A DNA stretch of 64,000 nucleotides, from contig NC_079234.1 in the NCBI RefSeq assembly GCF_028502605.1, positions 2,542,001 to 2,606,000 on the forward strand. The letters run 5' to 3'. The notes under the pieces are model-generated. The model had not been told where the DNA came from and searched no databases. It saw nothing but the letters and a program-made list of their open reading frames with translations. Each line of letters opens with the position of its first letter. The first letter of the stretch is position 1. A program made the translations under genes and the position numbers. This document shows, in pieces, positions 19,015 through 64,000 of this stretch. The DNA is from Trichoderma breve. Its lineage: Eukaryota > Ascomycota > Sordariomycetes > Hypocreales > Hypocreaceae.

Positions 19015-20544
19015 ATGGCCCAACACGGCTTCACCCAGTTTGGGTCTGGCCCGACCGGCGGCCACATCGACCCCAACGATCTGGCCATGTCGGGCGGATA
19101 CTCCCCGTCCTTTGCCAACAACAACTTCAACACAAACTCCAACACAAACGGCTTCTCGAGTGGCTCTGCCGTATTCGGCGATGACGAGCTGCTAGATGGC
19201 CTCCCTTCCGATGGACAGTCTGGCCTTCATGGCCAGGGCCAAGATTTCCACGGCATGAACATGGGTTACCAGAACACCTTTCAGTCACACCGCGGTTCTG
19301 GTATCCAAATCGACCCATCACAGATCAACGGCTACTCCAGTACCCCGGATGGTGACCCCATTCAGAGCCCATATGCTTACAATGCGCACTACCGCGCTCT
19401 TGGCAACCCTCTGCAGTCACCGTTGTCCTACTCTCAATCTCCCCTGGCCGCCGCCGACATGGCAGACGGAAACGATCCCAACTTCCTCAATGCCAAGGCG
19501 AGAGCCCGCATGTCCCAGCAGATGCAAAGAAAAGCCTCCAACACCAGGAGTCCGATGACTCCCAAGACCAACAGCATGCACAGCATTCCCATCGGCCAAG
19601 ACTCTCCTGGCTTTGGCCCTCAGTCTCTCCGGAATGACAAGTCACCGTCTGGTCACTGGCTCAACACCCCCAACGGAAGCATCCCCGCCTCTTTCAATTC
19701 TGGCTTTTCCTCTCCCATGCAACCAGGCATGGTGCAAATTAACGAAGTCATGATGAAGGGAGGCACCTCTATGCCTGCCAAGCTTGGCGTGGGAAATGCC
19801 ATGTCTACCCAAGAGATGAAGCGGAAGCGCCGTCGCGAGTCGCACAATCTCGTTGAGCGCCGCCGCCGTGACAACATCAACGAAAGAATTCAGGATCTCA
19901 GCAGACTCGTTCCCACACACAGATTGGAAGACGAGAAGATTCGCAAGCTGATTTCCAATGGCACGCCCTTGTCGCCCACCCTCACTGGTGTTTCAAGCGC
20001 TACCTCTGGTTTGGCCGGGCCTGGTGCCCGGAGAGCTGCGGGCGCTGGAGCTGGAAACATTACAACCGGCCTGCCTATTGAAGACAAAGACAAAGGCCCA
20101 AACAAGGGTGACATTCTCAACGGCGCCGTCAGCTGGACGCGGGATCTGATGTGGATGCTGCATCTTAAGCTGCAGCAGCAGGAAGAGCTGATCAACCACA
20201 TTGCCGAATTGGGCGGCACAATACCCTTTGAGCAAACCGATGATGAGCGCCGGATGCAATCTGAGCTCATGGATGCCATTTCCAGAAATGACTCGGGATC
20301 GTTTACCTACACACGCACTTCTGGCTCAGGCCTTCGTGTACCTCACCACACTGACTACCGTGGCGAACCCACCAACGGAATGAGCGGCAACCTTGACTCT
20401 GTTGGCATCACTCCGGAGGGAAGTGGTAATGGCGGACTACCCGGCGATCTTGGAGATGCCGCGCAATTCTGGCATGACCCCGATGATGATGCCAATCTCA
20501 ACTTCAAGGAAGAGGATGAATATGATATGGATCTCACACAGTAG
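19015..20544 (+). CDS. bHLH transcription factor with a long loop
   Basis: Single exon, 509 residues. The N-terminal ~260 residues are Gly/Ser/Asn/Pro-rich and look like an activation region. The basic region and helix 1 lie at about residues 269-300: KRKRRRESHNLVERRRRDN, then INERIQDLSRLVP. The His/Glu/Arg pattern (H...ER.RR) matches E-box (CANNTG) binders. Helix 2 (GDILNGAVSWTRDLMWML) only begins at about residue 364, so a loop of some 60 residues separates the helices; it contains the segment NITTGLPIEDKDKGPNKG. A Gln-rich helix (HLKLQQQEELINHIAELG) extends helix 2, as in bHLH-leucine zipper proteins. The C-terminus is acidic (DPDDDANLNFKEEDEYDMDL). It resembles the fungal group annotated as HLH transcription factor GlcD-gamma; that is from memory of the family. 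Target genes are unknown. Confidence 0.88.
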   Translation: MAQHGFTQFGSGPTGGHIDPNDLAMSGGYSPSFANNNFNTNSNTNGFSSGSAVFGDDELLDGLPSDGQSGLHGQGQDFHGMNMGYQNTFQSHRGSGIQIDPSQINGYSSTPDGDPIQSPYAYNAHYRALGNPLQSPLSYSQSPLAAADMADGNDPNFLNAKARARMSQQMQRKASNTRSPMTPKTNSMHSIPIGQDSPGFGPQSLRNDKSPSGHWLNTPNGSIPASFNSGFSSPMQPGMVQINEVMMKGGTSMPAKLGVGNAMSTQEMKRKRRRESHNLVERRRRDNINERIQDLSRLVPTHRLEDEKIRKLISNGTPLSPTLTGVSSATSGLAGPGARRAAGAGAGNITTGLPIEDKDKGPNKGDILNGAVSWTRDLMWMLHLKLQQQEELINHIAELGGTIPFEQTDDERRMQSELMDAISRNDSGSFTYTRTSGSGLRVPHHTDYRGEPTNGMSGNLDSVGITPEGSGNGGLPGDLGDAAQFWHDPDDDANLNFKEEDEYDMDLTQ

Positions 20545-33590: not shown

Positions 33591-36500
33591 ATGTCTGGGC
33601 TTCTCGACACCGACTCGGTCGTCGACCAACGGGCCGGCATGCACCTTCGACACGTCTTCCACCATGGCCTCAACCTACCGGAAGAGCTCGAGATGCTGCG
33701 CCACAAACTGCGCGTCCTCCAAGACGTCGTTGATCACCACGGTATGTCTCCATGTTTCTCACTTTCGGTCCGCCCTATCTGCCTCTGTCTCTCAGTCTCT
33801 GGCTTGTCTCGCCTGGCCCTCCCGCTCTCACCCCCATGTGCGCATGTGTGTACATGTACGGGCTGATGCCCTGTATGTGTGTGCGTATTGCGTATTTGCA
33901 TCATAGGCTCCCCCTCAATTGCTCTCTTTTTTCTTCCTTGCCTGTCAAACCCCTGTCCTGTCCTGATACAGCCTTGTCCACATTTGAGCCCGGCCTCGAT
34001 TGACACACACACACACCACACATACACACGCTTTTTTGCTCCCCTACCTTTGCCTTGCCTTGCCTTGCCTTGCCCTGCCCTGCCCTGCCTTTCCTTACCT
34101 GACCTTATTACTCCGTACATACATGCATATATGCTGCATCCACGCTTGTTTTGTACTAGACAGGCAGACGGACAAGACCAGGCCAGACCAGACCAGACCA
34201 GACAGATACCGTACATATTAGTGGTAGCGCTCCGTACATGCCCTCACATACTTACACATACATACGAGCCGTCATTCGTTTTCCGGTCCGGCAACGGAGC
34301 CCGTGTGCTGACTCGCAAATGCTTATCAGGCCTGGCGTCGCGCGTAACCCCCTTCATGTCCGACATTGAAGAGGCTCGCGCGATTCAGCACCGTTGCGAA
34401 TGCCTCGAAGCTGCTTGTGTTCGAGATAGTAAGCTGAGACCAGACCCTCCTACCGCTACTTGATTAGCTAGCTGCCCATCTCCCGTTCTCCACGCAGCCC
34501 GCCGCCGCCGCCACCAACCCGCCTCATGCAAGCCCCCAATCCATTTGTCAAAATATACTGCTGCTACTCCATGCTACATCTGCCTTGTACTCCATACATC
34601 GTCAGGCCCAAAAACAACCAAGGCCGGGACCTGTTGTTAGTTCGCCTTGCCCAGACGCTGACCTTTTCTCTCCTTCTCTTTGCTCCCGCGAAATAGACGT
34701 GGATGCTGTCGAGCCCCTGAGAGGCTCTTCGCGATCGGCGCCGCCAGGGTTCGGCTCTTGGCTGGACAAGCATCTGGAGCTCCACGACCCTGTCCTCCGG
34801 GCCCAGCGGGAGTGCGGCAGCGAAGTTGTGTCCAGCGCTTATCCGCTTCCCTCTCTAAAGTGCTGGGACGACCGGTGCATCCACTACGTTTACGGTTTTC
34901 TCACCGAGCTTGATCGGAGCAGCCACGCCCGAATGCATGCCTCTCACGCAAAGAGAGACTCGGAGCTCTCTGCCGCCAGTTCGTCGCTGTCCTCGTCGTC
35001 GGTTCTCGCCTCTGGACACGGTCCGTATCTGTCCAATGCCTCTGAACCGTTGGGCCCGTCGCCTCTCATGCACCTTCCACGCCCCGCCCTGTCCTCCAAG
35101 CTCCCTCCTCTCAGAATCCCGACGCCGTCGACCGAACGGCGAGACTCGCTCATAACCTACGCATACTCCAGCCGCTCCGCCGCCCCGAGGAGTGCCGTCG
35201 ACGCCGATGTCGAGCCCCTCCTCCCGCCATTGAAGAGGAGCAGGGTCGGCAGCTTGCCTCGTCTCGAGTCTATCGGAGAGCTTCGTCTCTTTCACGACCA
35301 GCGGCCATGCCTCCGCTGTAAAGTGACAAAGAAGGAGGTGGGATACCGTTCTTCTTCTTCATTCTTCTCCCAAACTCTGGGGGCCGTTCCTGTCGTGGAC
35401 TAACATCTATTTCGTCTCTTGTCTGGGAATCCAGTGCGATAGAAATCAGCCGTGCTCAGCCTGCTCAAACCTACCATTGATAAGTTCCGAGGACCATTGG
35501 GCCGTCATTGGGTGCTTCCGCAGTTCCCTCAGCACTTTTACCGACTATTTACTGCCAGGTATAAACGATTTGGTTTACTCTTCTCTTCTGTTTTCCTTTC
35601 TTCGTATGGCCTCGATTTGCACCTTCATGTTGTTATGGTTGTCTTGTTTTCCTCGTTTCGGCCTTTGCAAAACCGGAAAGCTCCAACGCATTTCTCTAAC
35701 AACGCCGGCTAGGCTCTTCTTTCTCACACGGACAAATTCAAACACCCACATCTTCCACGTCCCCCACACGACGACAAAATGTGAACGATTATCTGCAGAG
35801 AACGTGTGTTTTTCCAGCGCATATTGGTGAACATGTCAGAACATGTATGGACTATAGGGATGCCTTTTGGTGGTCCGGACAGCAACAATCTCATAGAAGA
35901 TACGATGGGCATCACGAGACCCAGCAGCTCACCCAGGATATGGTCAGCCGCCCTCCACCTATTCTCTGCGCCCTGGCTGCTAGCTGGAATTGCCAGGAGA
36001 CATCAGCTAGCCCGCTCGATCTCCTGAGATATACCGGATATATATCGCCCTCCCGCGAGGCCGAGGAGTCACAGTACCCAGTTTTATACCATGCAAAGGT
36101 GCTGCTCCGCGAAACTGCTTTTTACTGCCTTTTCCATCCCAAACCGGTCCTTCAGTTGGATCCCAGCTTCGGATATCAGCCCCCATCAGACCGCCTGGAT
36201 TTTACCGGAGAGCACAGCCGGCTTGTCGAACAGGCCATGGTATCATTCTTGCAGTCCTTTGAGACCATTTCTCTGAGAAGTTCTCCTCTTCACTCGAAGG
36301 AATGGCTGGCCGTTTTTTACTCTTTGTGTATCTTCAGCATAATTCGCACCTTGCTCATGGACCTCGCTTCAATATCGTTGCTACCTTATCCGGCGTTTCG
36401 ACATCAAAGTCCACTCAGAGACAGTCCGCAGAACACCATAGACAGCGTATACAAGGCCTTGGTCCACTTGTTCATCACGAGTGGGCCGATGTTGACGGAT

Positions 36501-38402
36501 GGCTCTCCCAGCGATGTTCCACAGGAGGACGTTCCCGTATATGAGCTCACGCGCCGCATCATGCGCATGGATACGTGGCAGGCCCGAAATATTCGCTCCA
36601 GTGCAGATTTCCTCATGAGTTTAGGAAGCGGAACTAAAGATATGTTTGGGTTCAATGGCTTCATCCGGCCCGGACGGCCAAACGTTGTTCCCATCATTGA
36701 TTCTCAGCTGTCAACTCCTCAGTCCATCTCGGCACGTGAGCCACGGTGGTCATCCGTGGGGAGCTCTGCATTTCCTCCCGCACCCTCCCACAGAGAAATA
36801 CTACTTGGACCGCGTCCAGAGGCATTGGACGATGCTAACATCAATCGCGGAGGGGTTTCGTCTTCCTTGAGCCAACCGGTCCCAGAACACGTCGGACGTG
36901 CCAGGAGGCACACGGTTGCGGGGGAGACCACCAACAATTCGAGCCCAATCTTCGGGAACCACTTGACTCCCATGAGATTCAAGCCTGCCTACCAAAGACC
37001 ACCTCTCCGGCGTGTGTTTTGCCGCAAGTGTAATGAATATCCCGAAGGATTTCGGGGCGAGCACGAACTGAGACGCCATACAGATGCTAAACACGCAGCG
37101 CTAGTAAAACGATGGGTTTGTTGCGAGCCTGGAGGACAAAGCCCAGCATCCCCACAACCTGCCATTCCCCTTTCGAGCTGCAAAGCTTGCGTTATGCAGA
37201 AGCATTATGGCGCCTATTATAATGCAGCGGCTCATCTTCGACGAGCTCACTTCAACCCCCACCGCGGAGGCAAGGCCAGCGGGGATTGGCCGCCCATGTC
37301 GTTGCTGAAAGACTGGATGCGCGAAGTTAGGCAATCTGTGGCGGAGGTGGGCGGTGATGTGGACAATGACATGTCGAGTGATGGCGAAGAGGAAGAAGAC
37401 GTGAAGCACCCTACCAGAACGGTACCTCTGGCAGCTATACCGCCGGCACCGGTGATGGAGCTACCGCCGCCTATCCCAATCGTCAGCTCACACTTGTCAG
37501 TATCATCTGTCAGCTCGATGACAGTATCTCCAAGTATCATGGAAGATCAGGTGCCATGGGAAATGGTCTCGAGGAGCCCGGTCGGCCGGTTAGCGCCGCC
37601 GCCGCCACCACCTCCGCTGTCACTGCCGCCACCATCGTCCCAGCCGCCGATCCCACACCACCTATCGAGGCCTATACCGACACCGCCAGCACCCGAGAAC
37701 CGTAGCAGATGCCCGTTCCCCGATTGCGGGCGCGTGTTCAAAGACCTGGCCGCTCATATGCTCACGCACCAGGAGGAGAGGCCTGAGAAGTGCCCCATTG
37801 AATCATGCGAATATCACACCAAGGGCTTTGCTCGCAAATACGACAAAAACCGACACGCGTTGACACATTACCGAGGAACCATGGTTTGCCCGTTTTGCCC
37901 GGGGGTCGGCTCAGCCTATGCAAAAGCATTCAATCGAGCCGATGTGTTTAAGCGCCACCTTGCTGCAGCTCACCAGGTCGAACAGGCGCCTCTGCATAGT
38001 CATACCACCAACAGAGGTGGCCGGCTCATTACACTTTCTGCTAATTCAGGGGCTAGCGCCATCTGCTCGATTTGCAACAACCGCTTTGCCGCACCGCAGG
38101 ACTTTTATGAGCACCTGGACGACTGCGTGCTGAGCGTCATCGTTCCGGCGGGTACCCGAGCGGCCATGGAAACGAATAACGATGCTAACGACGAAGATAA
38201 AAAGCCAATACGAGGAGGATCCGCCGGGGCCGGGACTGGAGCCGGAGCCGGAGTCGGATCTGGCCCCGGTACAACCGGAGAACGGACAGCTGGGAATGGA
38301 AATGGGAACGGGAATGGGAACGGAAACGGGACAGGAACCATTGATGGTACACAGGGAATGATTTACATAAGAAGAGCGAAAAAGTCTGCACGGATGGAAT
38401 AA
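33591..38402 (+). CDS. Zinc-cluster-like plus C2H2 transcription factor
   Basis: I assembled five exons: 33591-33741, 34330-34428, 34697-35337, 35435-35558 and 35713-38402. They make 1,234 residues with every phase closing. The N-terminal ~285 residues are mixed and Ser-rich. Residues 288-307 (CLRCKVTKKECDRNQPCSAC) have the start of a Zn2Cys6-like cluster, and exon 3/4 splits it between E297 and C298. Downstream, SVxDYLxRT-type text (NVNDYLQRTCVFP), then FWWSG and PPPILCALAASWN, is a helical regulatory region seen in a family of fungal C2H2 regulators. At about residues 772-850 is the VFCRKCNEYPEGFRGEHELR block with a C2H2 finger and a Cys-rich partner (DUF7896-like). Further C2H2 fingers lie at about 1003-1080, and a last C2H2-like unit at about 1123. 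The C-terminus is Gly/Asn-rich. Probably a nuclear regulator; targets unknown. The fourth donor (GTATAA) is the weakest junction. Confidence 0.8.
34003..34027 (+). repeat. CA-rich microsatellite in intron 1
   Basis: (CA)n with interruptions, inside the 588-nt first intron of the zinc-finger gene. Confidence 0.7.
34051..34090 (+). repeat. (TGCCT/TGCCC)8 pentanucleotide tandem in intron 1
   Basis: Eight consecutive five-base units, TGCCT then TGCCC variants, within intron 1 of the zinc-finger gene. An ACCAG-type tandem follows at about 34178-34203. Confidence 0.85.
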
Positions 38403-39171: not shown

Positions 39172-40254
39172 ATGTCAGACACTACAAGCCAGGAGGCGGA
39201 GGGTACGGAGACATTGAGTGCGGCAAACAGGCGGAGATTGCAGAACCGACTGAACCAGCGTGCGAGTCGTAAGTGACGATTAACTAGCTGCCCATCTACC
39301 TAGCTTTCTTCTCGTTAGTTCACGAGAGCTGATGAATGAAAAGGCATGAGAAAGAAGGAGTTGCAGAAGCAGCAACAGCAGGACAAGAATCAGGTTAGCA
39401 AATGGGTCTTTTATGTAGACCCGAGAACAGAGGACGCGCAGCTGGACGGGCGGCCGCTGGATCGGAAGCGCTATCAATGGCGTCTTGCACAAACGCAACC
39501 GGTGTCGTCTCTTGGTGATTGGAAAGCGTCTGGCTCGGAATTGACTGTTGCCACCCGCAATTACTACGGTACAGGCTTCACCGACGTGTTCCGCTCTCCC
39601 AAGCACCGTGACGAGATATTTCGCTTCTTTTGTAAGTTATCAACGACCGAACGGGGTATCTTTTTCCGTCGGCTGTATGAATTGGTTACTCGCCATGTTG
39701 CACAGCACACGCTGGACAGTCAGCTATTGTTATCCGTGATGCAGTTCAACGTGATCCGGGCCGCGGGGGTGAATGCTGCGGTCATCGGCATCGGGATGGA
39801 TGTCATGGCCGAAGATGTCATCTCGCCCTTCTACACCGGCGCCGGTACTCAGCTTGCTCTGCCTTCCGCGCCTGGCGGTAGCGCTCCATACGACAAGGAG
39901 ATGCAGTATCTGCCGCCGAACCTGCAGCCAACCGCGTTGCAGAAGCTGGTCATCCACCACCCCTGGATTGACGTCTGCGCTCAGCCTTCGTTGCGAGACG
40001 CGCTGCTGAGGCGGTTGCATAATCTAGATGAGGATGAGTTTTGCCATCACATGTTTCTACAATCTGGCGAGTCGGACAAAGACGGCATGATTGGGATGGT
40101 CGTGTGGGGGGAGGCCTGGGATCCCGCGTCGTACGAAATCTCGGCCACCATGATACGCAAGTGGCCGTGGATAGTGAACGAGTGCCCAGATATCATCAGG
40201 ACGACAAATTACTGGCGGGCAAAGAGACAGGAGGGTCCATTGAAGATTCTTTGA
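39172..40254 (+). CDS. bZIP transcription factor with DUF3425 domain
   Basis: Two exons, 39172-39268 and 39344-40254, encode 335 residues. The short first exon is needed to complete the basic region: SAANRRRLQNRLNQRASR at the end of exon 1 continues into RMRKKELQKQQQQ in exon 2, with a split Arg codon. The N-R-x-x-Q-R pattern is the DNA-contact signature of the fungal bZIP group that carries DUF3425. The leucine zipper is short and weak. From about residue 170 the DUF3425 domain follows: LLSVMQFNVIRAAGVNAAVI, then LPPNLQPTALQKLVIHHPWI and WGEAWDPASYEISATMIRKW. Such proteins often sit beside metabolic genes and act as local regulators. Its stop is only 98 bases from the stop of the convergent dehydrogenase gene, so the two 3' ends probably overlap. 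Confidence 0.88.
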
Positions 40255-40352: not shown

Positions 40353-41525
40353 CTAGATGATAAAGGGCTCTCCGATGAGCTTCTCGCTGAGCTCCCACAG
40401 CTTGGTCCAGTTATCTCGGTTCAGGATGTGCGACGTCAAATGATCCTCGGCAGGGGCATTCTGGTGCAGGAACGCACCGTGGGCCTCCTCAATGGTGGGA
40501 TCAATCATGCCCGTGATGAGCGTCGCCGCACCCTCAGATGTGCCTGTGAAATTCGGCATGTTATAGGGGCGGCCGTCGAGATCGCGCATTGCTGCTTCAG
40601 TCAACTATCGGTTTAAGAAAGGAGGACGAGGGAGCACGCTTACGTTCAGTCGACTTGCGCAGTACCTGAATCTGAGCAAGGAACTCTCCGCCAAAGTGGC
40701 GCTGTAATCCTGTTTGAACCGCTGTTGAATCGAAAGGCGACTGGTTAGCCATGGTTCACCAAGTTTCCATTGGGGGATTCATGGCAGGATACATACCACC
40801 GGGGTCGACGCTGAAGACGCGGATGCCTTCTCCTTTAAGCTTCTCGCCTAGGAACAGGGCAAAGATTGTTCTGGCGGCGTTTGACTGGCCATATGCGTCG
40901 AGAGGGTCGTATGTTTCTCCGTCCTGTGGAACGGGCAATATGTCAGCAATCAGGGCCGTTCTCAACACGTATACTATGGAAGACGAACGCTGTAGTTGAT
41001 GTCGTCAAAGTGGACCTGGCCTCTTCGCACAGCGGAGCTAGAGCAAATGACAATGGAGGACTTTGGCCCCGCAGCCCTGATCTTGGGCAGCAGCTCCTTG
41101 ACCAGCAAGAAGTTGGCCAAGTAGTTGACGCCAAACTGCGACTCGAGGCCGTCCGCCGTCTTCGCGTACGGGGGCACCATGACGCCGGCCACGGCGACGA
41201 AGTGGTCGATCTTTGGCACGTCGTCGAGGTCCTTGACCGCTCTGCGGACGTCCTTGAGGTCGGAGAGGTCGAGCTTCAGGAAGCGAGTGGAGACGTCGGG
41301 GTTCTTGGACTTGATCTTTGCGACGACGGGCTCGACGCGGGACTCGGAGCGGGCAGTTAGGATGACGAGGGAGGGCTTGTAGGCGCTAATTTGGACGGCG
41401 AGTTCGCCGGCGATGGAGTCGTTGGCGACGCCGGTGATGAGGATTGTCTTGCCGGCGAGGGATTCGCCGTATTTGCTGAGGATGAACTCGGAGGAGAGGA
41501 TGAGGCCGCCGTCCCAGCTGGGCAT
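40353..41525 (-). CDS. Short-chain dehydrogenase/reductase, atypical active site
   Basis: Four exons, 41525-40989, 40923-40797, 40721-40644 and 40591-40353, give 326 residues with consistent phases. The Rossmann fold starts with ILITGVANDSIAG, a variant of the TGxxxGxG cofactor motif. The second-strand segment LVILTARS favours NADP(H). DLSDLKDVRRAV and VAVAGVM correspond to the D-loop and NNAG-type motifs. The catalytic Ser lies in SSIVICSSSAV. The Tyr is in DAYGQSNAA, where the usual Lys of YxxxK is Asn. A C-terminal substrate region runs through FSVDPGAVQTGLQRHF. The subfamily is closest to retinol-dehydrogenase/WWOX-like fungal SDRs of unknown substrate. The first donor (GTTCGT) is non-consensus. 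If Lys is truly absent, activity may be changed or lost. Confidence 0.85.
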
Positions 41526-42504
41526 GGTTGCTGTTTGATGTATGTGTTTTTTACGAAAGGGTGATGAAAATAAAGTGAACGATGTTGGAGTAGGAGAAGA
41601 TTGAGAGCTTATTTGAATTGAGTGATAAAGTACAGTGTTGTCTGGGTATACAAGACTTTGAATCCGCGAAACCTCGTCGATACTTATACTCTTCGACTTA
41701 CACGCAAACCCACAAAGACATGAAAATCACAATCCAATGCAACAGCAACAGCTTCGCCCATAATTCCCAACAAGGCTAGCCCTCCAGTCATCAACATGCA
41801 CTCCATCCCCACCACCGGCTTTAAGCCTCTATATCCAACTTTCTTCCTCAGGGGGGGACTCGCTTTGCCTCTCGTTTAAGGTTGTCCAAACTTGAATTGT
41901 TCCAATCACGATCTCCGCAAATCCCGAGATGCGTCTTTACTGTATCTAGTTAAGTCTCATTCTTTCTCTACCTTATTTAGTTAGAGCGGCTGTCAGCACT
42001 CGGAAGGACCCGCAGTTGCCTCATGAGGCAACATTCCCTCTGAGAACGACAGACGGATAGACGGACAAAGCAGAGAGGAGGAGGAGAGAACGCATGATTT
42101 CGGTGTAAAGAGGGTTCTTTGCGGAAATGCGGACTGTTGGCTGCGGAGCGGTTTGTTTGGGTGGAGGAGTTGTCTCGGCTTTTGATGGAGTTTGCACGGA
42201 TTGTGACTCTGCGGCTGAAGTAGAGCGAGAGAAGTTTACATTTTGACAGAGTTGATTATGTTAAACAATATCGAATGAGATATATAAGGTAGAGAGCTTC
42301 ATAAGCGCCATCAAGCTATACGCAAATAGAAAGGATTCATAAACTTTAATAGTCGAGAAAAGACCCTAATCATGCAACGCCAGAGAAGAAATGAAAATGA
42401 AACCACCGCCATAACTGTTCGTCATGTCTAGCCATTCGCCGTAACTTAGCTGTAAATCTATTCAAAACTTCCTAATAGTGCGTCTTGGTGCCGGCTCAGG
42501 ATCA
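41526..42504. other. Intergenic region, SDR promoter and C2H2-module 3' flank
   Basis: About 1 kb. The half near 41525 serves as SDR promoter; the half near 42504 is the 3' flank of the ankyrin/C2H2 gene and is A/T-rich around 42240-42370. No gene seen. Confidence 0.5.
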
Positions 42505-45500
42505 TCATGCAATGGTCTGTCTCCACTTGCCATGGCATCTTGGCTGCTTCCCTTTCCTGTTCGCGCAGTGTTTGTTCTCATGAGCCTTGATATTCGATTT
42601 ATTGGGGTCCCTCGTGCCACATCCGTAACGGCAGTTGTATATTACCCGGCGGTAATTTGCTATGGTGTCGGGATGATGAATTTTCATGTGTTTCTGGAGA
42701 TTGCTGGCCTGGCCCCTGCGGCCATTCTTTCCGAGTTTAAATTTTGAACCGCAACGCTCGCAGTAAACCGCTCCGTCCATCAAAGTGCCCATGGTAGTCG
42801 AGCTAGGCGTAGCTGTAATCACTGAGGAGGGTGAAATGGTAGTGGCGGGTGATGAAGCCGTCAGATGTGACGACACACTGGGCGAGCAGTCCATGATAGA
42901 ATCAACAATACTAACACTATTAATTACGAATGTAGAGATGATAGGAATTGGAAGCTTACTCGGAGGGGTCGATCATAGGATAATCACCCTCGTAGGGCGC
43001 CTGAGCGGTTGCCATAGGCTCCTGAGCTGTCTCTGTCGGGAGACAGTCTGGCACCAAATGGTCGGTGCTCTTGCAGCTCTCAAAGTCCACAGGAGACGTA
43101 AATCCGACATATATGGCAAGGATGGCGGTGTTTCGAGTAATTATCTGATCCGGAGCCCGACCATCCCCGCCATCTGAAGTCAGGATGGGTAGGCATAGTG
43201 TCGAAAAGCCGTATCGAGATACTATCTCTGTGTTAGACTAAACAGAAGTAGACGAAATACGGGAGTACTTACGACATAAATAGAGCAGGATTACGCCGAA
43301 TATGGCGCCTGCCACTAAGACGGTGATACGAGCCAAGATACTTAGCTCTTCCCACTCTGGGTCCGGCGGCTTGGGGGCATCGGTGTGTGGACTTTCTTGT
43401 ACTGTTTGCTTGGGTAATGGATGCCACTCGGCCAAAGTAGGGTTTCTTTCGCATATATTAGTAGGACTCATTTCAAAAGAGTATTGTTGTCGTAGAGTTT
43501 GCAGCCGATAAGAGTTTCCAGACCCAAGATCAAAAAGCCCGGGTGTCCTCACGAGATGCTTGACCATATCTTGTAAGGACATCAAAGGGCTCGCGAGACT
43601 GTCCGCCAATTCATAGGCGACTGTTGAGGCCGGAATTCCCCAGAGATAGGACGCTATTTCGAAAAATAGGCGTCGATCATCTGGACTCACAAGAGAAGCC
43701 CATCGTGGGATGTCATTAATAAATCTACATTATCAGCCAGGTTAACATCAAGAAAGGGTTCTAGTCTACTTACTCTTTCTTCGAGTACCCTAATCCCGAA
43801 GTTTTAACGACCGCCCGCATTGCATTTGCAACTTGCAGTGCGCTGACGATATCCGAGAGGCTACGCGGCTTATAGCCCTCGTAGATTTCCCGAATCGCAC
43901 GTGTTCCTCTCTCCCAGATGGATGCGCTGGTACCGAGCTGGTCCACGTATGCTATGACTCCGGCAGAGGCGTCCTGTGTGGCGCTTGCGTCAAGCAATTT
44001 TTTGCATGATTTGGCAACTTTTGCAAGTAACTTGCGCGCCATGGTTCTGCGATCTCGGGCCCGTATACCGGCGATGGCTTCACGACGCTTAAATGTGTCA
44101 CGAGGCTTGCCGGACAATATGGAAGGATATAAATCATCAGAATCATCCAAGACAGAACCCTTGCCCTCATTTTTGGAGAGGGCTGCTCCAATCGAGGATA
44201 AGAACTGAGCCACTTCACTTTTATTCGACTTTATAGCTGCTGCCAGGGGCGAGTAACGCGGTCGTGTACAAATCGCATACTTCATAGTCGAGTTATACGG
44301 GTTAACATAAGCACCAGCCTCTACAAGGCAGCGGACAATCTCGAGGTAGCCCTTTGATGCTGCTACTGCCAGGGGCGAGGAATGCTCTCGGTGACATATT
44401 GAAGAGCCCTCAGCCGCTCTGCAGTGCCGCGTATCTGGATTGACATTTGCACCAGCCGCTACCAGGTAACGGACAATGTCGAGATGGCCCTCCGATACAG
44501 CTGCTGCTAGAGGCGAGTAATGCGGTCGTATACACCTCGAATCTTTCGCAATCGAGTCGCCTCTGTGATGCGTATATGGGTTGACATCCGCACCGGCCTC
44601 TACCAGGCAACGGACAATTTCAAGGTAACCGTTCGATGCTGCTACGGCCAGGGGTGGAGAATGTTCTCGGCCACACAACGGAAAGTTCTTAGCTTCTTCT
44701 ATACTTCTTCCAAAACGGACCAAACCATTCTGACGCACAAAAACAGCTCTTCGCGGGTACGACCAGCTCAGCAGAGAGCAGTGCCGTGTATCTGGATTGA
44801 CATTTGCACCAGCCGCTACTAGGTAGCGGACAATATCGAGGCGACCCCTCGATACTGCTGTCAAAAACAAACGATCACGAGCGTCATCGTTCATGCCGGT
44901 TCTGAAGCGTCCGAGAATCTCGTCTAGCCCTATCTGCTTGGTTCTCACCAGTCGAGGCAGAAGTACTAAATATTTATCACTAAGTACATTCGCTCCGGCA
45001 TCCAGTAGATAGTCGATAATGTGTTTGTGGCGATACTTGATGGCCCGAGCTAGCGGACACATGTACTCATTACCATTGATGTTTGCGCCTTTCTCCTCGA
45101 CGAGGTATTGGATAATTTCGAGGTGACCGCCAGAAGCTGCACCATTCAAGGCTGTTGTGCTGATGCAGGAATCTCCTCCCTCTTTGTTGGCATCATAAGC
45201 TAGAAGCAGCTGAACTGCGTCCATGAGGCCAGCTTTTGCGGCACTGTATAAGAGCTTGGCGAAGATATCATCCCCGCCCACCTGAGCGCCGTGCTTGAGA
45301 AGAAGACGGAAGACGGTCTCTTCATAGTAGTGCATGGCTAGGTATAAAGTCTTAGTATCAACGAAGGCTAGGTATGTGGCGAGCACTTTGTCCACGGCAA
45401 CGGGATCGCGCTCTTCGATGGCAGCCTGTAACTGGGATCGGGGGGGGCTCATTCCTGAAGAGGTAGGGCTGAATTGACCCCTTGATATCGGGCTCGTTAA

Positions 45501-46085
45501 TTTCGCTGATGGCTTCGTCTAGAAGGTCAAGATCTTCGGACATAGAGCTGTTCTGACTCTGAATGTCATGGAAGTGGAGTTCTGTAAGAATGTGCCTTTT
45601 TTGGAGATGCTCAAAGCCGAAGGTGGCAAATACCGAGCCTTCGCGGAGGAAATGACGGACAAACAAATCGAGTGCATCGAAGCTGTGTCCCTCTCTTCTG
45701 TCCTGGTTGAACTTGGCACTCATTTCTGGGTAACGGGGTAATAGACGGTCCATGCTGATGAAGGGACCAGGGGAATTATTTCTAAGGCTGCCACGCAGCG
45801 AGGAGATTGCACGCAACCATTGTAAGAGGTTGTCGTCATGGATATGGACGATGAGTGAGTTCTTGTTCTTGTGGAGACTGAAGCAGATCTCGAGGTCGGC
45901 GCTTGGATCGCCCTGGATGAAGCGGCCGTTACCGCACGAATGAGCCTTGAAAAATCCTCTTGGTAATGGTTAGCGTAATGCGAAATAGAAAGCTGCAGAT
46001 GCTGCAAGAGGGGCACTCACACTGTTGAGTCTTCAATAAAGACGAAGGCTTTGCGCTGGGACGAAGCCAACTGCTCTAAGCTCAT
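42505..46085 (-). CDS. Ankyrin-repeat protein with TM helix and C2H2 tail (one-gene model)
   Basis: Six exons: 46085-46021, 45958-45558, 45454-43774, 43724-43273, 43221-42960 and 42910-42505. They total 3,267 nt (1,088 residues) and stay in phase throughout. Residues 1-155 are an unknown region (MSLEQLASSQRKAFVFIEDS...). Residues ~157-600 hold ten or so ankyrin repeats, for example HLEIIQYLVEEKGANIN and PLAVAASNGYLEIVRCLVEA. A conserved-looking ~150-residue segment (FINDIPRWASLVSPDDRRLF) ends in one hydrophobic helix, ARITVLVAGAIFGVILLYLC. A Ser/Thr/Pro linker leads to two C2H2-type units (YCERCGSKF...HMKIHH and CRYGCGT...HENKHC). Introns at 45455-45557 (donor GTCAGA) and 43222-43272 (51 nt) are the least certain. 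Alternatively the ankyrin-TM gene ends at 43238 and the zinc-finger part is a separate gene starting near 43001. Role unknown. Confidence 0.62.
45440..45447 (+). other. G8 homopolymer at a frame switch in the ankyrin gene
   Basis: On the coding (minus) strand this is C8. The frame read through from 45816 and the ankyrin frame differ by one base here. It is either a homopolymer indel, or the whole segment is spliced out or around by the proposed 103-nt intron 45455-45557. Confidence 0.6.
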
Positions 46086-48078: not shown

Positions 48079-49009
48079 TTACTCTGCTACAGTCGATAGT
48101 TTCGACAAAAGCTGGCGGAACGCGTTGATATCTCCTTGCAGCTCACGCAACCGCCCTCTATTACCAAACACCTCGCCAACCGTCTTCAAGTCCTGTTCCA
48201 TTCGCTCAGGGTTTGTCGTACCATCTAGTATCTGAGTCCCGCCTAAACCCAAGATCAAGACATAAAAGGCGAGCTCCTTCTCCACGTTAAGCTTTGCAGC
48301 TACGGACTTCAAGATGTCTGATGCTAGAATCTCCGGGTTGTTCCTGAGCATCCAGTATGCCTGGTACGTTATGCCTCTCTCTACGCAAAATTCTCGCAGG
48401 TCAGAGTCAAAGCCCGTCTCTTTGTAGAAGCGGTTCTGCACCATGACAGGCTTAACCGTTGCGTTGGCATACACCTCCTTAAGCTGTAACAACTTGAAGT
48501 TGGAAACACCGAGGGAACGGATCGTGTGTGGCACAAAGGTCTCGAGAACTTTCCAGGCGATCAGATTGTCTCTATCATCCTCAAATGGTACATGAAGCAG
48601 CAAGGAGTCCAAGTAATCGACTTGAAGATGCTCAAGACTCTGTCGTACCGACTCAGTTATCTGGCCCTCAATGTCCTGGTGAGGATTGAAGGGGATCTTT
48701 TTCGGATGGTGAGCCCAGACTGGCGCGAATTTCGTTTGGATCTAAGCATGGCGAATGAGTCAATCTGGCAAAATCAGATATATGGAGAAAAGGGAAAGAA
48801 AAGGCACGTACAAAAAGATCGCTTCTTTTGATACCAGACTTGAGGGCCGCCGCAATTCCATCGCCCGTCAGTTTCTCGTCGTACGTAGTCGGGTAGTTGG
48901 CCGTATCGATGCATGTGAAGCCTTTCAACACAGCCGTCTCTGTAAGATGAGCCGTCCTTTCCTCTTTCCAGGCGGTTCCATAAAGAAGAAGCGGGATTTT
49001 GAGTTCCAT
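48079..49009 (-). CDS. Aldo-keto reductase
   Basis: Two exons, 49009-48812 and 48741-48079, encode 286 residues; the intron (donor GTACGT, acceptor TTAG) is in phase 0. It is an NADPH-dependent oxidoreductase of the AKR superfamily, probably cytosolic. The catalytic tetrad is visible: Asp and Tyr in FTCIDTANYP, Lys in IQTKFAP (first codons of exon 2) and His in DSLLLHVPFED. The substrate/cofactor strand motifs RSLGVSNFKLLQLKE and PVMVQNRFYKET follow. The C-terminal cofactor region is LGGTQILDGTTNPERMEQDL. The length is a little short for an AKR because the C-terminal loop region is compact. An in-frame ATG at 49078 would add 23 residues of no family character, so I chose 49009. It shares a 323-bp divergent promoter with the beta-lactamase-like gene. 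Confidence 0.87.
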
Positions 49010-49332
49010 GACAGATGAGAGTGATGGTTTGTTTCTACAGAGTGAGGGAAAATCCCCAATTGGTGAAGAGAAAGACAAGGGAGATGGGAGTGCTGTTGGT
49101 CGAAATCATCCGTGCTTGCTCCTTTGGTATACTGCTACAAACATATGCATGCGGCCAACACTCGCATAGATCAGAACCTTTATGTCCTTAAATTAGGACA
49201 AAGAGTTTCTGCTTCTCTGCCTAATACAAATACTGTGGAAACTCTATGAAATCCGAACCAGGAATTGGATCAAGCAATCTCACTTTAATAACAGCACCGT
49301 TTCGCCCTATTCATCACGGCAACGCTACCGAT
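49010..49332. promoter_or_regulatory. Shared divergent promoter, AKR and hydrolase
   Basis: 323 bases between two divergent starts. This arrangement often gives joint control of neighbouring metabolic genes in fungi. No specific operator can be named. Confidence 0.45.
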
Positions 49333-50967
49333 ATGCTCGCCCTCACGCTCTTCCCGCTCCTCGCAGCCGCACGGCAGATACCTCTTTTACCTCCAGAATC
49401 TAACCTTTCAGGGTTACGGGACAGACTGGTTCGCGCCCTGCCAGAGATTGAAGCCCTCAAGAACATCGGCGGCACGACTGGCATGTCCATCGGCGTCATG
49501 AGCCACGGAAACATCGTTCTAGAGACTAACCTTGGCTTTGCCGATGTCGAGCGCCGTCTGGTAGCCGACTCCAGCACGATATACCCCATCGCGTCTCTCA
49601 CAAAGGCTTTTACCGCCGTGATGATTGCGCAGTTGGTTGATGAAGGTCTACTCAGCTGGGATGAGCCCCTGAACAGCTACATCCCCAAACTCTCGTTTGA
49701 GCACGATCCATCCCTCGCCGGTCAACTCTCCCTCGTCGACCTCTTATCGCACCGTACAGGACTTGCTCAACTCGACAACCTCTGGCTAGGCGCCGACAGC
49801 CAAACCTTGGTAGCCAAGAACTTTACGGTTTCGCTGTGTAATCACTTAGTACCCATGTATCCCGTGAGATCACAGTGGCTATACAACAACTGGATGTATG
49901 CGCTGGCAGGCGAGGTCATTGAGAGAGTCACAAACCAGTCCTGGGGCCAGGTGCTCTCTGCCCGAGTGCTGAACCGACTTCGGCTCTCACATACTTCAGC
50001 CATCGCGTCTGAAATCCCCCGGGACTCGCTGGCGCTGCCATATGTGGTCCTCGACGACTTGACGGCAGTACGCGTTGGCAGTTTCGACCTCGCCGACGGC
50101 AGCGCCATGGCTGCTGCGGGCGGCATCCGCAGCACCGTCGGCGACCTTCTCACCTGGGGCAACGCTCTCCTTTCAGTCTTCCGGGACGGCGAGACACCAC
50201 TCGCCCTTCTCGACGCCGTCTTCTCCGGCCGCAGCTTCATGAACAGCACCGCTACACCAGACAAGCTTTATACAATGGGCTTCGTAAAAGTCATGACCCC
50301 AGCGCAAGTCGGCACGTTAGGTGTCAACCCCAGCCTCGTTGACGCCATGCCCCTGATAGGCACCAGCTCGAAACCCCAACAAGTCTTTTATCACAGCGGC
50401 GCCCTCACTGGTTACAACCACTGCTTCATACTGGTTCCGGAGTCTCAATCCGTCATAGTCGTCCTATCCAACTCCATTTCCCAAGGAGAAACCCCCTGCT
50501 GGGTCGCCCAATCTCTCCTCCAAGCCGTCCTAAACGAGAAGCACCCCCTCGACATGACTCAATTTGCAGAGCAAGCCGCCGCCAAATGGAGAACAATTCA
50601 CCAAGGAATCTCAGAAGCTCTCGAAAAGGGCCGCAAGCCGAACTCGCCAGAACCCATACACGAACTTCTCCTAGGCAAGTACTGGCACAAGACCCGAGCG
50701 ATATATCTCGACGTATTTCAGGAAAACGGTGCCCTCAAATTCAACATCAACGGGAAGCTGGAGCAAGAGCACGTCCTGTCACACTACAGCGACGATACGT
50801 TCGTCTTCTTGCCTTCGGCTGACGAGCGGATTCACAAGGGCCTGTTCCTCTATGGCCCTCCCTCGTGGCTTTTACATTTCAAAAAGGACTCGAGCGGAAT
50901 TTTCACAGAAATTCAGTGGGATATGGGCAACCATACTCCCTTTCCAGAGAAGTTTACCAGAGAATAA
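49333..50967 (+). CDS. Serine beta-lactamase-like hydrolase
   Basis: Single exon. From the ATG at 49333 it encodes 544 residues; an in-frame ATG at 49246 would add 29. I favour 49333 because it starts a short hydrophobic segment (MLALTLFPLLAAARQ) that may be a signal or anchor, and its context is better. The fold is that of class C beta-lactamases/penicillin-binding proteins. The nucleophile motif SLTK has Ser88 and Lys91, the Tyr184 motif is YNNW, and the third motif is HSGALTGY (His354). Supporting blocks are YPIASLTKAFTAVMIAQLVD, LVDLLSHRTGLAQLDNLWLG and AAAGGIRSTVGDLLTWGNAL. A C-terminal lipocalin-like region (ALKFNINGKLEQEHVLSHY) follows. Fungal members include esterases, D-amino-peptidase-like enzymes and hydrolases in metabolite clusters; the substrate cannot be told here. 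Confidence 0.88.
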   Translation: MLALTLFPLLAAARQIPLLPPESNLSGLRDRLVRALPEIEALKNIGGTTGMSIGVMSHGNIVLETNLGFADVERRLVADSSTIYPIASLTKAFTAVMIAQLVDEGLLSWDEPLNSYIPKLSFEHDPSLAGQLSLVDLLSHRTGLAQLDNLWLGADSQTLVAKNFTVSLCNHLVPMYPVRSQWLYNNWMYALAGEVIERVTNQSWGQVLSARVLNRLRLSHTSAIASEIPRDSLALPYVVLDDLTAVRVGSFDLADGSAMAAAGGIRSTVGDLLTWGNALLSVFRDGETPLALLDAVFSGRSFMNSTATPDKLYTMGFVKVMTPAQVGTLGVNPSLVDAMPLIGTSSKPQQVFYHSGALTGYNHCFILVPESQSVIVVLSNSISQGETPCWVAQSLLQAVLNEKHPLDMTQFAEQAAAKWRTIHQGISEALEKGRKPNSPEPIHELLLGKYWHKTRAIYLDVFQENGALKFNINGKLEQEHVLSHYSDDTFVFLPSADERIHKGLFLYGPPSWLLHFKKDSSGIFTEIQWDMGNHTPFPEKFTRE

Positions 50968-58388: not shown

Positions 58389-61300
58389 TCATGCCTGTTT
58401 GCCCAAGGCCCTTGGGGTTGAGTCGTCTCCTTCAAGTTGAATTCTCACCACCGAACCCCCGCTGTCAGTCCGATCTGTATCTGTCCCGGCTACGGGTGGT
58501 CTTGGTGTCGCCTCGGTGCTCCCAGGGCCCAGCATGCCTTCCAAATCGGCCCCGGCCCCAGTCTTGTTTGGCGTGCTCAGTGCTGCCGCTATGTCTGGTG
58601 GCATACCGACTAATTGTCTCTCCAACTCAAGTGAAGGTGTTGTTGCTACCTGCGTCACAGCTTCTGATGTGCTATCTGACAGTGTGACGCTGTCATGGCT
58701 ATCCGCTCGCATCATCTCAATACCAAGCTTCGAGCTCGGTAATGAGCCCTTTCCAATCACAGCCTTGCTCCCCCGTCTCAGCTGCATGTCTCTCCTACCA
58801 TCAAGCTCTTCATCTTCGTCGTCCGCGGACTCGGTGCCCTCCGAGGGCTTCTTGTCAAAAATGTCCTGCCTAACCTTGAGTCGGTTATCAAGACCGCGTG
58901 ACATGACTTCTAGGTGTGCTGGCGCCGACTGCTGGCACAGGAGCAAGGGTATGCTCTTAGGTGAATTATCAAGCCCAGCTGCTGCGTCCATGTCGGTGAT
59001 TCCAAGGCCACCGCTGTCATCCCCCCAATCACCGGTTGCCTTGCGGCTGATGACGACCGGGATCTCATCCGTAGTGTAAGACTCCGAATCCCCAAACATA
59101 CTAGATGTGATGGAATCTTCCCGGCTTGACACCATCGCCGATGCATGGCGGCCCGTAAACGCAGAGATGCTCGACGTTGGACTGTCATCGATTGGACGAG
59201 GGGGGTGAGCTCTCCTCAGGTTAAGCGGAATGGTTTGCGGCATGGAGGGAATAGCCGGCCTGTGCGGGGATTCGGGCTGCCACTGGCAGAGGCTCCGAAG
59301 CACCTCTGTTAGTTTTGATGAGCTGATGGGTTTCTCAATCAGGGAGTCAAAGTAGTGCGGCGCCTGCAGTTCCTTTAGATACGCCGTAATAGCTACGATG
59401 GGGGTGTGCGAGTTGGCATTCTTGGTCTCTCGTATCATGCGAGCCACGTCGGCTCCATTGATCTGTGGAAGTCGGTATTCGAGGAAGATGATGTCAAACT
59501 TGATCTCGCTCATCGAATATCGCACTGCTTCCGATCCGTTAGCTACGGAAATGGTGCGGCAGCGTAGCTTCTCAAGGAGTTTCTCCATCACCATCCGAGA
59601 CACGGGATGATCTTCACAGATGAGCACGTCCAAGGGCCGGAATGTCGGTCCGTTGTCAAAAGCAATCTGAGAGAGCCGTCGTGAGCTTTGCCGACGCCGC
59701 TGGACCCTCAAGAGAGCGTTATGCTTGTCTCCTTCGTTGTCTGAGGATGAAGGCGACATGTCAAACACTTGACTTCGACGATTCCGGTGGTGATGCTGGA
59801 GCATGTCTGTTGCTATGGGGCTGGCTTCCTGCGATCCCACAGTGAGGGACCTCGACCGGCTTGTCGAAGATGTGCTTCCCTGCCGGACCGGCGTTGCCAA
59901 CACCTTTCCTGGAGACAACGCAAGCGGAGGTGGTACCGCGTTTCCATTACGGGGTTTAATCGGCGATGCAGATGCGGATGTTGCAGCTCTCTGCAGGCTA
60001 GGGGGAACTTTTGGTATCTCAAAGGCGGAATTTGGCTGCAGAGAAGATGATGATTGGTACGACAAGCTGGATGAGTTACTTGATGCCTTCCTACGGCCAT
60101 CTGATGGTACTTGTCCGGCTGCCGTGAAAGAGACCAGCAAAGGAGATGAGGGCTGTGAAGGCTGCGAGACCTGCGAAATCCTGTTGGGAGACGCATTCGC
60201 GAGGCTTAAGCCTGATGGGGATTGCGGGCGAGCCTTTGCGTTGGACAAGGTTCTTTGAATATGGGTTGATACCACGGGGCTGCCTTCAAGCGACGGTGCT
60301 GGAGATGGTACACCTCCAAGCCCTCCAAGCCCTCCGGGACTAACGGCTGACTGCTTGCTTTGGACTGCCAGGGCCTCTGCCCTAAGCTTCTGGATCACGT
60401 CCTTGTTTGCCTTTTCCAATACAGGCAGGTTCTTGAAAGAGAAGCTACCAAAGTCATCGGCAGCAATTGGCTCGCTCAGCCTCCGTGATTTGAGGTCTCG
60501 CACGTGAGGGGGAATGTGTAGTGGCATCAGCTTCCTACCCGCTTGGTTTACTTGCGAACGGACTCGCGAAAGGGCGTCGTGCGGCCTATCTGGATAGTCA
60601 GTGGACCCAGTAGTGGAAGATTGCGGCGACATTTGGTCCTCCATCTCCTCTACGAATGATTGAAGGACAGCGCCTCTCGAATCAAAGTATTCGGTATCTT
60701 CTGGGTTCTCCGGCTGAGGGACGAACTGAGCCTCATCTTCCAACAAGGTTTCCCAGTTGACTCCTGCAAACCAAGGATGGCTTCGTATCTCCTCACCACC
60801 AGAAGCGAATTTTTCTTCACGGTTGGAACCCAAACGTTGCGGGGGGTCCATGCATAACAGCTTGTTGATCAAATCTTTGGCCTCATCAGACACTGGCTCA
60901 CAGTCTGCATCATCTGGCCACTGAATCTTGCGTGCCAAGATGTTCTCGAAAACCTGCTCGGCTTCGCCGGCGTGGAATGGTGGGATGCCGTAAAGAAACT
61001 CAAACATGATGCATCCGACAGACCACCAATCACTCGTCTCATCTTGCTTGTCTCCCTTGATCGTTTCTGGGGCTAGATAATCTGGAGTTCCGACGAAGCG
61101 CCTGTTTGTATCTTCGGGATCAAACAATGCCATGGGAGGTGGTATCATGTTTGGCGGCGGGTGAGAGTTTCGACCGTGGCTGTCCATGCTAGTTCTGGTG
61201 GTTGAATATGGTGCCAGATCTGGTGATCCGTGAATTACAGCGTCCTCATCCAGGAACATCCTAGCGCTTGCAGGCTGAGAACCCGAGTCGGAGTCATGGA

Positions 61301-64000
61301 TGGAGAATGTGGTGATCATGCGGCTCAGCGTCTCGCTTCCACCGCTGTCGCTTCGATGGCTATTCGAAATGCGGCGTGGGTCAGACTGAGCAGGGCCAAG
61401 ACTGAAGTACGACGGCTGGCCAATGCTCCCGACATCCGGCGTCATCTGTGGTGTTGCGCTGGGAGAATAAGTTTGACCCTGAATATCGAGCGATGTTGAT
61501 CGTGAGGATGCCATAGACGTAGAACGAACAAATGGTCCCTGCTTGAGCAGGTCTGGAGTAGAATCTGCGTCACTGTTCAACGCTCTCTTCTGTCGACCTA
61601 CTAAACCCATGCGCGAAAGTCCGAAATCAGTCAGCTTCAGATGGCCCTTTTGATCGATCAACAGATTATCGGGCTTGAGGTCTCGATGGATGACCCCTCT
61701 CTCATGAAGATGCTCCACGCCCAAGACAACTTCTCCAAGATACTTTTTGACCCAGTCTTCAGGAAGACCGCCCAGCACCTTGATGAGGGAAGCGCAATCG
61801 CCTCCGTTGAGATACTCCATGACAAGATATAGGTAATCTTTGCTAGAAAATGTCCAGTACAGCTTCGCAACGAATTCGCTCTGTCCTTGCCACATCATAA
61901 TAGCACGCTCCGCCTTGACATTTCCGACCTGGTTTTTGGCAACCATGTCGGCCTTTTTCAGCACCTTGATGGCGAAATACTCTCCAGTAGATTTCTTTTT
62001 CGAGAGATAGACGCTGCCAAAGGCTCCTTTACTTATGGGCTTGATAATCTCGAAGTCTTTGATCGACGGCTGCGACGATCGGGGCTGCGGCGGCGGCTGA
62101 TTTCCAGCATTGAGACGTGGAGATGGCGGCGGCTTCATGACGAAGTCAGATATTGCGGCTGAAGATTGTCTCCTGTGATGTCTAGACGGATGAGTAATGG
62201 GGGAGCTGAATTCGCTACTAGGAAACATTGGTGATGCCTCGGGGGAAATGATTGACTCGTGCGCTTGAGGCAGCACCCGAGCCTTGATCCTCAGAGGAGA
62301 GGATGGCTGCGTCATCATCCGTGACGGGGATTCTTGCCGTCGGGGAGAAGCTGTCTCCGGGATCACTAAGCTCCGCCTGTGCCTCCTGGAGCTCGCTGCA
62401 CGTCTTAGATCGCCAAATTCAGAGATGGGCGATTCAGTCCTGTTGTGCCCTCGCGAGGCTACCGATGATGATCGTAGGCTTCCCTCACTCTCGCCAATGT
62501 CGCTCTCGAGAGGGAGGGTTGACCCTCGGCGTGAATCTCGAGATTGGCTCAGAATGCTCAACCCACCCGGATGAGATCGAGGAGTTGGGCATTCTCTAGG
62601 ACTACTGGATCTAGTAGATCCCACAAACGATGTAGGGCGAGATCGTCCAAGTCCCCCGGACATGTCGACCTGACGAAGTGCTGCAGCCAGGGCAGAAGGG
62701 CTGGTAATGGAGTGATCAAAATGCTCTTCGCCGGCGTGGCTTGTCGGCTCGGTGGTTTCACTCCTCACTTCGATGTCTTCTGTGTATGCTTCCGACTCAT
62801 CAAGCTCGTCTTCGGTGGAATCACTAAACCGACCCTCGGCAATGCGAGCGGCTTTTCTGGTCGCCTCATCAATACAGTCTTGTACGAGAACCGCAAACTC
62901 GATGCGAATTCGCTCCGCATATTCAATAATCTGCCGATGGCGGAAGACAGCATCCACCTTGGCTCGAGCCACCTTTTCAGTATCTTCGCAGAGCAATGCC
63001 AGACCTTGTTCTTGTTCGAGAGTGTTGGAGCTTGGCGACTGCCACTGGAGCACTTGCGAGATTCTCGATTCCGACTGAGGTGATTGGGTGCGCAGTTCCC
63101 AGTTGCCATGCTGCGAAGAGCTCTCCTTGATACCCGGGCAGCTGATTTCGATGGCAGTATCGCATAGATCCAACAGGAGCTCAACGATACGTGCTTGTGG
63201 TCGACGAATGGCAAAGGAACGGGCTCTGGCGTGTCCAAACCCGCCCGGTCTTTCTCGTGAGCGAGCGAGCGAAGTCCCGGGGGACGACTGTGCCGATGGC
63301 GGAGGGCCAATGGGCTGGCCTTTGTATTCGGCGACGGGAAGATTGGGCGAGTCGCCGCCAGTCAATGATCGGCTCTTGCGTGATTCTAGAGCGTCAAGGA
63401 CCTTGACAATGTGATTTCTATGCTCACTCAGGCTCTCCTGAGCCATTTGCACATCCATTTCGGCATGGTGCTCTTGGAGACACAGGTCCGTGTGCTTTTC
63501 GAACCACCAGGGCGGTATCTGACGTTCGCAAATGCGGCAGAGAACTGGAGGCGGAGGTTCTGGTCCTTCTGATTCTTCGCTTGCAGCTTCTGCTATGCGG
63601 GTGAGGATACCGGCGAGGATTTCGACTCCCGAGCCTAGGGAGTCGACAATCACGGCGGGGAGATCGATTTGAACTTCGTGTGGTATCCACGGACGAATCA
63701 TCCACATTGTCTAAATCATTCACTGGTTAGTAAATAGAGAGAATCAAGGGCCGGGAGTAGATTCAATCGTCGAATCTCCCGTTCACCTGCCCAAAGTCGA
63801 GAAGAACCTACATGGCTTTCACCGCCCGAGGCACTGTCGTACACCATGATACCCTGTGCCTCGAGATCGGCCACCTCCGTTTGTGGGACTTGTGATGGAT
63901 CGAGAGCCGAAAGGCTGTCCAACGAGCGTAACTTTGACAGAGGGCCCAATACAACAGAGAAGCGAACCCTGTGGCTCTTGGAGTCGTCCCTCTTCATCGA
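58389..64000 (-). CDS. rim15: Rim15-type nutrient-response protein kinase (partial, 5' end outside window)
   Basis: The visible exons are (outside)-63812 and 63710-58389, with the phase-0 intron 63711-63811 (donor GTAGGT, branch ACTAAC). At least 1,835 residues are visible; the N-terminus lies beyond 64000. A CxxC...HxxxC motif (CRICERQIPPWWFEKHTDLC) is characteristic of Rim15. The kinase domain begins DFEIIKPISKGAFGSVYLSK, about 555 residues into the long exon. It has AIKVLKK, HRDLKPDN and DFG, and reaches GTPDYLAPE after an insert of roughly 180 residues, as in Rim15. The receiver domain, VLICEDHPVSRMVMEKLLEK, has LEYRLPQINGADV, in which Glu replaces the phospho-acceptor Asp. The downstream acidic tail contains RS and Thr/Ser stretches. 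Rim15 integrates TORC1, PKA and phosphate signals to start quiescence and stress programmes. Confidence 0.93.

Follow-up and report, generated by a model that had tools for sequence, protein, structure and literature searches.

The subject of this analysis is a gene of Trichoderma breve on the minus strand, at 46085-42505, of a 64,000-nucleotide stretch of contig NC_079234.1 (positions 2,542,001 to 2,606,000), hereafter the window, whose own coordinates are used throughout. Read along its predicted exons, the product of this one gene begins with a beta/alpha domain, which is followed by ankyrin repeats, a middle domain of helices, a single transmembrane (TM) helix and a tail ending in zinc fingers. 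The assignment of the ankyrin, membrane-helix and zinc-finger parts to one gene is well supported by sequence comparison; that the ankyrin-TM-finger protein is a membrane-held C2H2 regulator is the favoured reading of its role, though short of a probable one.

After splicing, the region 45449-42505 (minus strand, as are all parts of the gene given below) forms one open chain of 933 residues, made of exons 3-6, in which the ankyrin repeats are followed by the middle domain with the hydrophobic helix, by exon 5 and finally by the zinc fingers. Exon 3 (43774-45449) carries the ankyrin repeats and the beginning of the middle helical domain, exon 4 (43273-43724) the remainder of that domain, a proline-rich linker and the TM, exon 5 (42960-43221) the post-membrane segment, present in the published T. 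breve protein, P0001, and in relatives, and exon 6 (42505-42916) a serine/threonine-rich linker, the two zinc fingers and the stop codon. The introns between them have GTAAG donors. Intron 3 (43773-43725; 49 nucleotides (nt); GTAAGT...TAG) is spliced in P0001, and the open reading frames (ORFs) of the relatives P0018, P0031, P0033 and P0034 terminate at its position. Intron 4 (43272-43222; 51 nt; GTAAGT...CTAAC...TAG) leads to a stop at 43238 when read unspliced. Intron 5 has a GTAAGC donor and two acceptors, 42917 and 42911, lying 6 nt apart (42959-42917 or 42959-42911, 43 or 49 nt), either of which is used in the models of relatives; unspliced, it brings an immediate stop after PSE.

The preliminary description of this locus, made from the letters alone, spoke of one protein only conditionally and left room for two genes lying head to tail. 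Such an arrangement, with a finger gene behind an ankyrin-TM gene, now appears very improbable and was rejected. The gaps of 51 and 43-49 nt carry intron signals, leaving no space for two genes, and the parts are joined in relatives. Two annotated proteins, P0002 of T. afarasin and P0012 of T. aethiopicum, contain ankyrins, TM and fingers in one piece, so that a search for homologues of the same architecture does not find the parts always separate, and the ORF P0023 links exon-5-like sequence to the fingers in one intron-free frame (its first 75 residues score 61 against exon 5 plus linker, the maximum of 200 shuffles being 42). The ankyrin ORF P0033 comes from a contig of equal length (16,527), and the two ORFs may lie next to each other. 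P0014, whose N-terminus is cut, combines TM and fingers, and in the model of P0012 a 17-residue in-frame counterpart of intron 4, matched by eye, is read through. An ATG at MDCSPS in exon 6 and the published T. breve model, which stops ahead of that exon, would suit a separate finger gene, but a search with the finger exon alone, covering proteins of about 75-240 residues and returning 6 proteins of 15 candidates, gave no annotated stand-alone finger protein among its matches. An origin of the ankyrin-helix-finger chain by chance is untenable, since the C-terminal half is matched by 16 Trichoderma proteins, counting that of T. breve, all with E values of at most 4.5e-74.

The individual domains named in the preliminary description were recovered as well. 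The ankyrin repeats are strong in the Pfam scan (PF12796, Ank_2, E 1.4e-37). The transmembrane helix, located at 43274-43336 (LARITVLVAGAIFGVILLYLC), reaches a Kyte-Doolittle (KD) value of 2.69 across 19 residues (ITVLVAGAIFGVILLYLCL; computed on P0001, which has identical letters). The next most hydrophobic stretch of P0001 outside the ankyrins, in exon 5, has a value of 1.18, and the best one of the N-terminal block 0.71; a topology with a second TM was rejected on these values, which leaves one TM, followed by 224 residues.

The zinc-finger pair at 42568-42762 has the spacing C-X2-C-X20-H-X4-H / C-X3-C-X12-H-X3-H, found in the window and in 12 of 14 relatives, the remaining two, P0009 and P0022, matching finger 1 only. 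The two C2H2-type units are borne out by this ligand spacing and by the predicted model of a relative, which matches tandem C2H2 structures at the finger pair, while the Pfam scores stay below the cut-offs: zf-C2H2 gives 12.5 bits in the window and 19.7 bits in the relative P0021 (cut-off 25.2), and zf-BED reaches 18.4 bits, against a cut-off of 20.6, in both P0021 and P0022. In the relative's model the fold of the pair appears similar to that of the tandem C2H2 DNA-binding pairs of Tramtrack, CTCF and Kaiso. It differs from them in that finger 1 of the window has 20 residues between the second cysteine and the first histidine, whereas about 12 are canonical in C2H2 fingers. A sequence search of solved structures with the fingers returned one weak match, 1x5w (E 0.54), and the same kind of search with a profile of five ankyrin-less relatives returned no match. 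For the middle part, a PAS domain was considered and not accepted (PAS_3, 16.1 bits; cut-off 25.6). The N-terminal block in exon 2 (45441-45958) is a predicted mixed beta/alpha domain matching no Pfam family; in the P0003 model its residues 11-70 have predicted local distance difference test (pLDDT) values of 79-91, and a Foldseek search for its fold with this model gave no matches at E <= 0.001 and 73 at E <= 10. As the mean pLDDT is 56.6 for P0003 and 57.7 for P0002, confident stretches alone were used.

Conservation differs among the parts. The median identity is 87% for the TM (12 relatives), 74% for the finger part of exon 6, 71% for the middle domain (18 relatives), 63% for the N-terminal block including its disputed portion discussed below (21 relatives), 58% for exon 5 (14 relatives), 54% for the linker ahead of the fingers and 48% for the ankyrin part (16 relatives). 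The finger pair itself is 63-96% identical in 13 relatives, the highest value being that of P0002.

Over 81% of the searched region (chain residues 440-880), the published protein P0001 agrees with the chain at 100% identity; the finger part, which makes up the remainder, is absent from it. It contains exon 1, exon 2 up to REGS, exon 3 starting about 70 nt earlier, exon 4 and exon 5, and ends at intron 5 (...DPSE), with the fingers left out. Six further ankyrin-TM models, P0004, P0005, P0006 (partial), P0007, P0010 and P0013, stop at the intron-5 donor, and likewise P0029; P0016, P0030 and P0036 end otherwise, without TM or fingers. These concordant stops are what speaks for the published ankyrin-TM protein being the main product, with the finger form rare or absent in most species. 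We consider this improbable, as the GTAAG donor in the phase of intron 5 gives an immediate TAA on read-through, an easy stop for gene finders; conservation is higher in the finger part of exon 6 than in exon 5, although not in the linker before the fingers; and P0023 lacks an intron between exon 5 and the fingers.

The preliminary description, largely right in what it observed, held that six exons keep phase. This is true of exons 1-2 and, separately, of exons 3-6, but not across the join of exons 2 and 3. Exon 1 (46021-46085) comprises the start codon and MSLEQLASSQRKAFVFIEDSTV, with identical residues in P0001, and is separated from exon 2 by intron 1 (45959-46020; 62 nt; GTGAGT...CTAAC...AAG), spliced out in P0001. 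Exons 1-2 read MSLEQ...FRNEP in one frame, and the ankyrin part continues in a different one. In the published model an intron at 45633-45519 deletes the block VFATFGFE...NEP, which is present in 14 of 15 other aligned relatives (alignment columns 201-270), the exception being P0014, which lacks the N-terminus. This intron was rejected as false, since it would remove a block conserved among relatives. Because the block is present and conserved in them, it is taken as coding, and the frame switches from that of the N-terminal block to that of the ankyrin part at a run of C at about 45440-45450, where no plausible intron was found and the relatives are continuous. The published gene models contain errors, at the join of exons 2 and 3 and in the stop at intron 5 without the fingers. 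The first 40 or so residues of the T. evansii model P0013 are, by eye, apparently another frame of the conserved N-terminal block, and broken or mis-modelled N-termini recur in the ankyrin-TM-finger family.

The frame change at the C-run may be an assembly error or a real lesion. In the latter case the gene could be decaying in this strain, leaving either no full product or only a product whose translation starts inside the ankyrin frame, and the broken or shortened models of the relatives P0013 (at the N-terminus), P0014, P0027 and P0028 would be in line with this. We regard decay as quite unlikely: the whole of 45449 to 42505 is open after splicing, the fingers are 96% identical to those of P0002, and changes in one-base runs are a common type of assembly error.

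As far as the searches reach, the family has been seen only in Trichoderma. All organism-named matches belong to this genus, 20 of 20 (among 29 proteins) and, in the search with the C-terminal half, 16 of 16 (among 20); both searches scored only the 7,996 candidates with the most words in common, which could let distant relatives elsewhere escape. Within the T. breve genome (38.5 Mb, 9 contigs) no paralogues were found, the finger exon, the TM exon and the N-terminal block each matching their own locus alone. In a midpoint-rooted tree of 29 sequences and 364 columns, built on the N-terminal block and the middle domain, the ankyrin-less P0003, P0008, P0009, P0011, P0015, P0027 and P0028 form one clade with a bootstrap of 100. 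Many nodes near this clade are weak (32-64), and the simplest reading is that the ankyrins were lost once, because the outer branches all carry them.

The TM is shortened or missing in six of the seven ankyrin-less models, and at least one finger is kept in five. P0003 alone in the clade has a full TM (KD 2.26), together with fingers; P0008 has a shortened TM that may still span the membrane (KD 2.04) and both fingers, and P0009 a shortened TM (KD 1.47) and finger 1. P0011 and P0015 have no TM and keep fingers, while P0027 and P0028 have no TM and end in another frame, their models suggesting DNA that joins the middle domain to the linker without the TM. The finger linker is read by these two in a frame (AQCVVTSDGFITRHYH) that stays open over some 30 residues in the window too, at about 42895-42805 (-), and their alternative frame may be an annotation choice or decay. 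Among the annotated ankyrin models the TM is present in 9 of 12 (KD 2.31-2.69), the other three being P0016, P0030 and P0036. Together these counts suggest that anchor and ankyrins go together.

The zinc-finger regulator tethered to a membrane that the preliminary description put forward fits the findings; its ideas that the ankyrins sense a ligand and that proteolysis releases the protein would be conjectures. If the protein is a membrane-held regulator, the ankyrins and the middle part would bind a partner, the single helix would keep the protein at the membrane, and the finger pair would act on nucleic acid once freed or in the nucleus, the freeing route being either proteolysis or a form made without the TM. 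Judging from the gene models, the ankyrins and the anchor would be coupled as a 'hold' module, and the output would come from the fingers, a view that fits the ankyrin-less clade with its eroded TMs and retained fingers. Alternative forms could also arise through splicing. With intron 4 retained, the protein would end 11 residues past the TM (RKYSRISSTSV), as a tail-anchored form; with intron 5 retained, it would end at PSE. Intron retention is described in fungi in the literature considered, and a splice switch of this kind is possible, although the intron-5 stop proves nothing about it, because that stop follows from donor and phase.

Membrane topology is where the reading as a membrane-held regulator is weakest. 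With a single TM the ankyrins and the fingers would lie on opposite sides of the membrane. The net charge is 0 to -4 in the 15 residues before the TM and 0 to +2 after it (11 proteins, P0001 included), a hint, by the positive-inside rule, that the fingers are cytosolic; against cytosolic fingers, the roughly 850 residues ahead of the TM lack an N-terminal hydrophobic segment for transfer. If the fingers are lumenal instead, their release would require a retrotranslocation step like that of Nrf1. The coupling of anchor and ankyrins rests on gene models, among which P0016 lacks the TM through an apparently wrongly predicted intron.

The opposite-side topology would be readily accommodated by a membrane-anchored adaptor, in which ankyrins and fingers bind proteins on either side of the membrane or at a contact site and the fingers do not regulate genes. 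Ankyrins are protein-binding modules, zinc fingers can bind proteins too, and the spacing of finger 1 is long and BED-like, as the sub-threshold zf-BED scores indicate. We find an adaptor not very likely, though worth keeping in view, as few parts of the protein are better conserved than the fingers, and two models that lack both ankyrins and TM, P0011 and P0015, still retain them. The membrane-held C2H2 regulator can be extended to a fuller scheme, in which such regulators are restricted to the genus and carry a removable module of ankyrin sensor and anchor, a single loss of the ankyrins in a sister clade was followed there by erosion of the TM, giving finger proteins without a tether, and the gene switches between tail-anchored, finger-less and finger-bearing forms by retaining intron 4 or 5; taken as a whole, this scheme is unlikely.

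The preliminary description knew of no fungal system with this layout. As to tethering and release this overlooks Mga2 and Spt23 of yeast; as to the order of domains and the DNA-binding domain it stands. In Mga2/Spt23 the ankyrin repeats precede a single TM near the C-terminus and are themselves preceded by an IPT/TIG domain. The window protein shares with them the one TM, the ankyrin repeats and the idea of a membrane-bound fungal regulator. It differs in that its fingers come after the TM, which is not near the C-terminus. The Pfam scan at E up to 1 found no IPT/TIG family in the N-terminal block or the rest of the chain, and the chain contains no LPxY or PPxY, whereas Mga2 has the Rsp5 recruitment motif LPKY. 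Without an IPT domain and with the TM far from the C-terminus, membership in the Mga2/Spt23 group fails. Nrf1/NFE2L1, a bZIP protein without ankyrins, provides a precedent should the fingers lie in the lumen, with no homology claimed. Nrf1 is a regulator that first enters the lumen of the endoplasmic reticulum and is then pulled back and processed (PMC3896944). Mga2, which carries an IPT domain, is membrane-bound through one TM and processed, its active part being released after ubiquitylation (PMC7005026).

Searches of open-licence PMC papers listed none that describes the ankyrin-TM-finger layout in its title or the opening of its abstract. A 2026 survey of membrane-bound regulators names Notch in connection with ankyrins, and also a fungal family whose DNA-binding domain is that of MYRF, and its main text, in the part available, contains none of 'zinc finger', 'C2H2', 'Mga2' or 'Spt23' (PMC13294678). 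Ankyrin genes are among the highest-number gains in Trichoderma and are highly polymorphic, and when the paper that reports this was written, a systematic characterisation of ankyrin proteins was still lacking for Pezizomycotina; the layout is not mentioned in the part of that paper considered here (PMC6560777).

Of the 16 listed open frames of the window, 10 were run against Pfam, three of them without a family. A 1773-residue frame at 58392-63710 (-) has protein kinase and response-regulator receiver domains, a layout that presumably resembles that of Rim15/Cek1-type kinases. The frames at 35700-38399 (+) and 39340-40251 (+), neighbours of the gene, carry DUF7896 and DUF3425. The frame at 19006-20541 (+) gives a partial helix-loop-helix match, in which residues 276-305 of its 512 cover only the first 30 of the 53 domain positions, and an intron likely lies inside this domain. 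Ordinary neighbours are a short-chain dehydrogenase at 40977-41726 (-), an aldo/keto reductase at 48082-48741 (-) and a beta-lactamase-like serine hydrolase at 49225-50964 (+). A scan of the window against Rfam gave no match.

The T. breve gene is a member of the large class of expanded Trichoderma ankyrin genes, and its family would add a new form, restricted to one lineage, to the idea of regulators held at a membrane. It offers a Trichoderma ankyrin protein equipped with a putative output domain, and since sensor and anchor are present in some natural variants and absent from others, its wiring could be tested across species. Fingers are absent from the published T. breve model, as from six others, so that surveys of fungal membrane-bound regulators relying on such models could miss the family.
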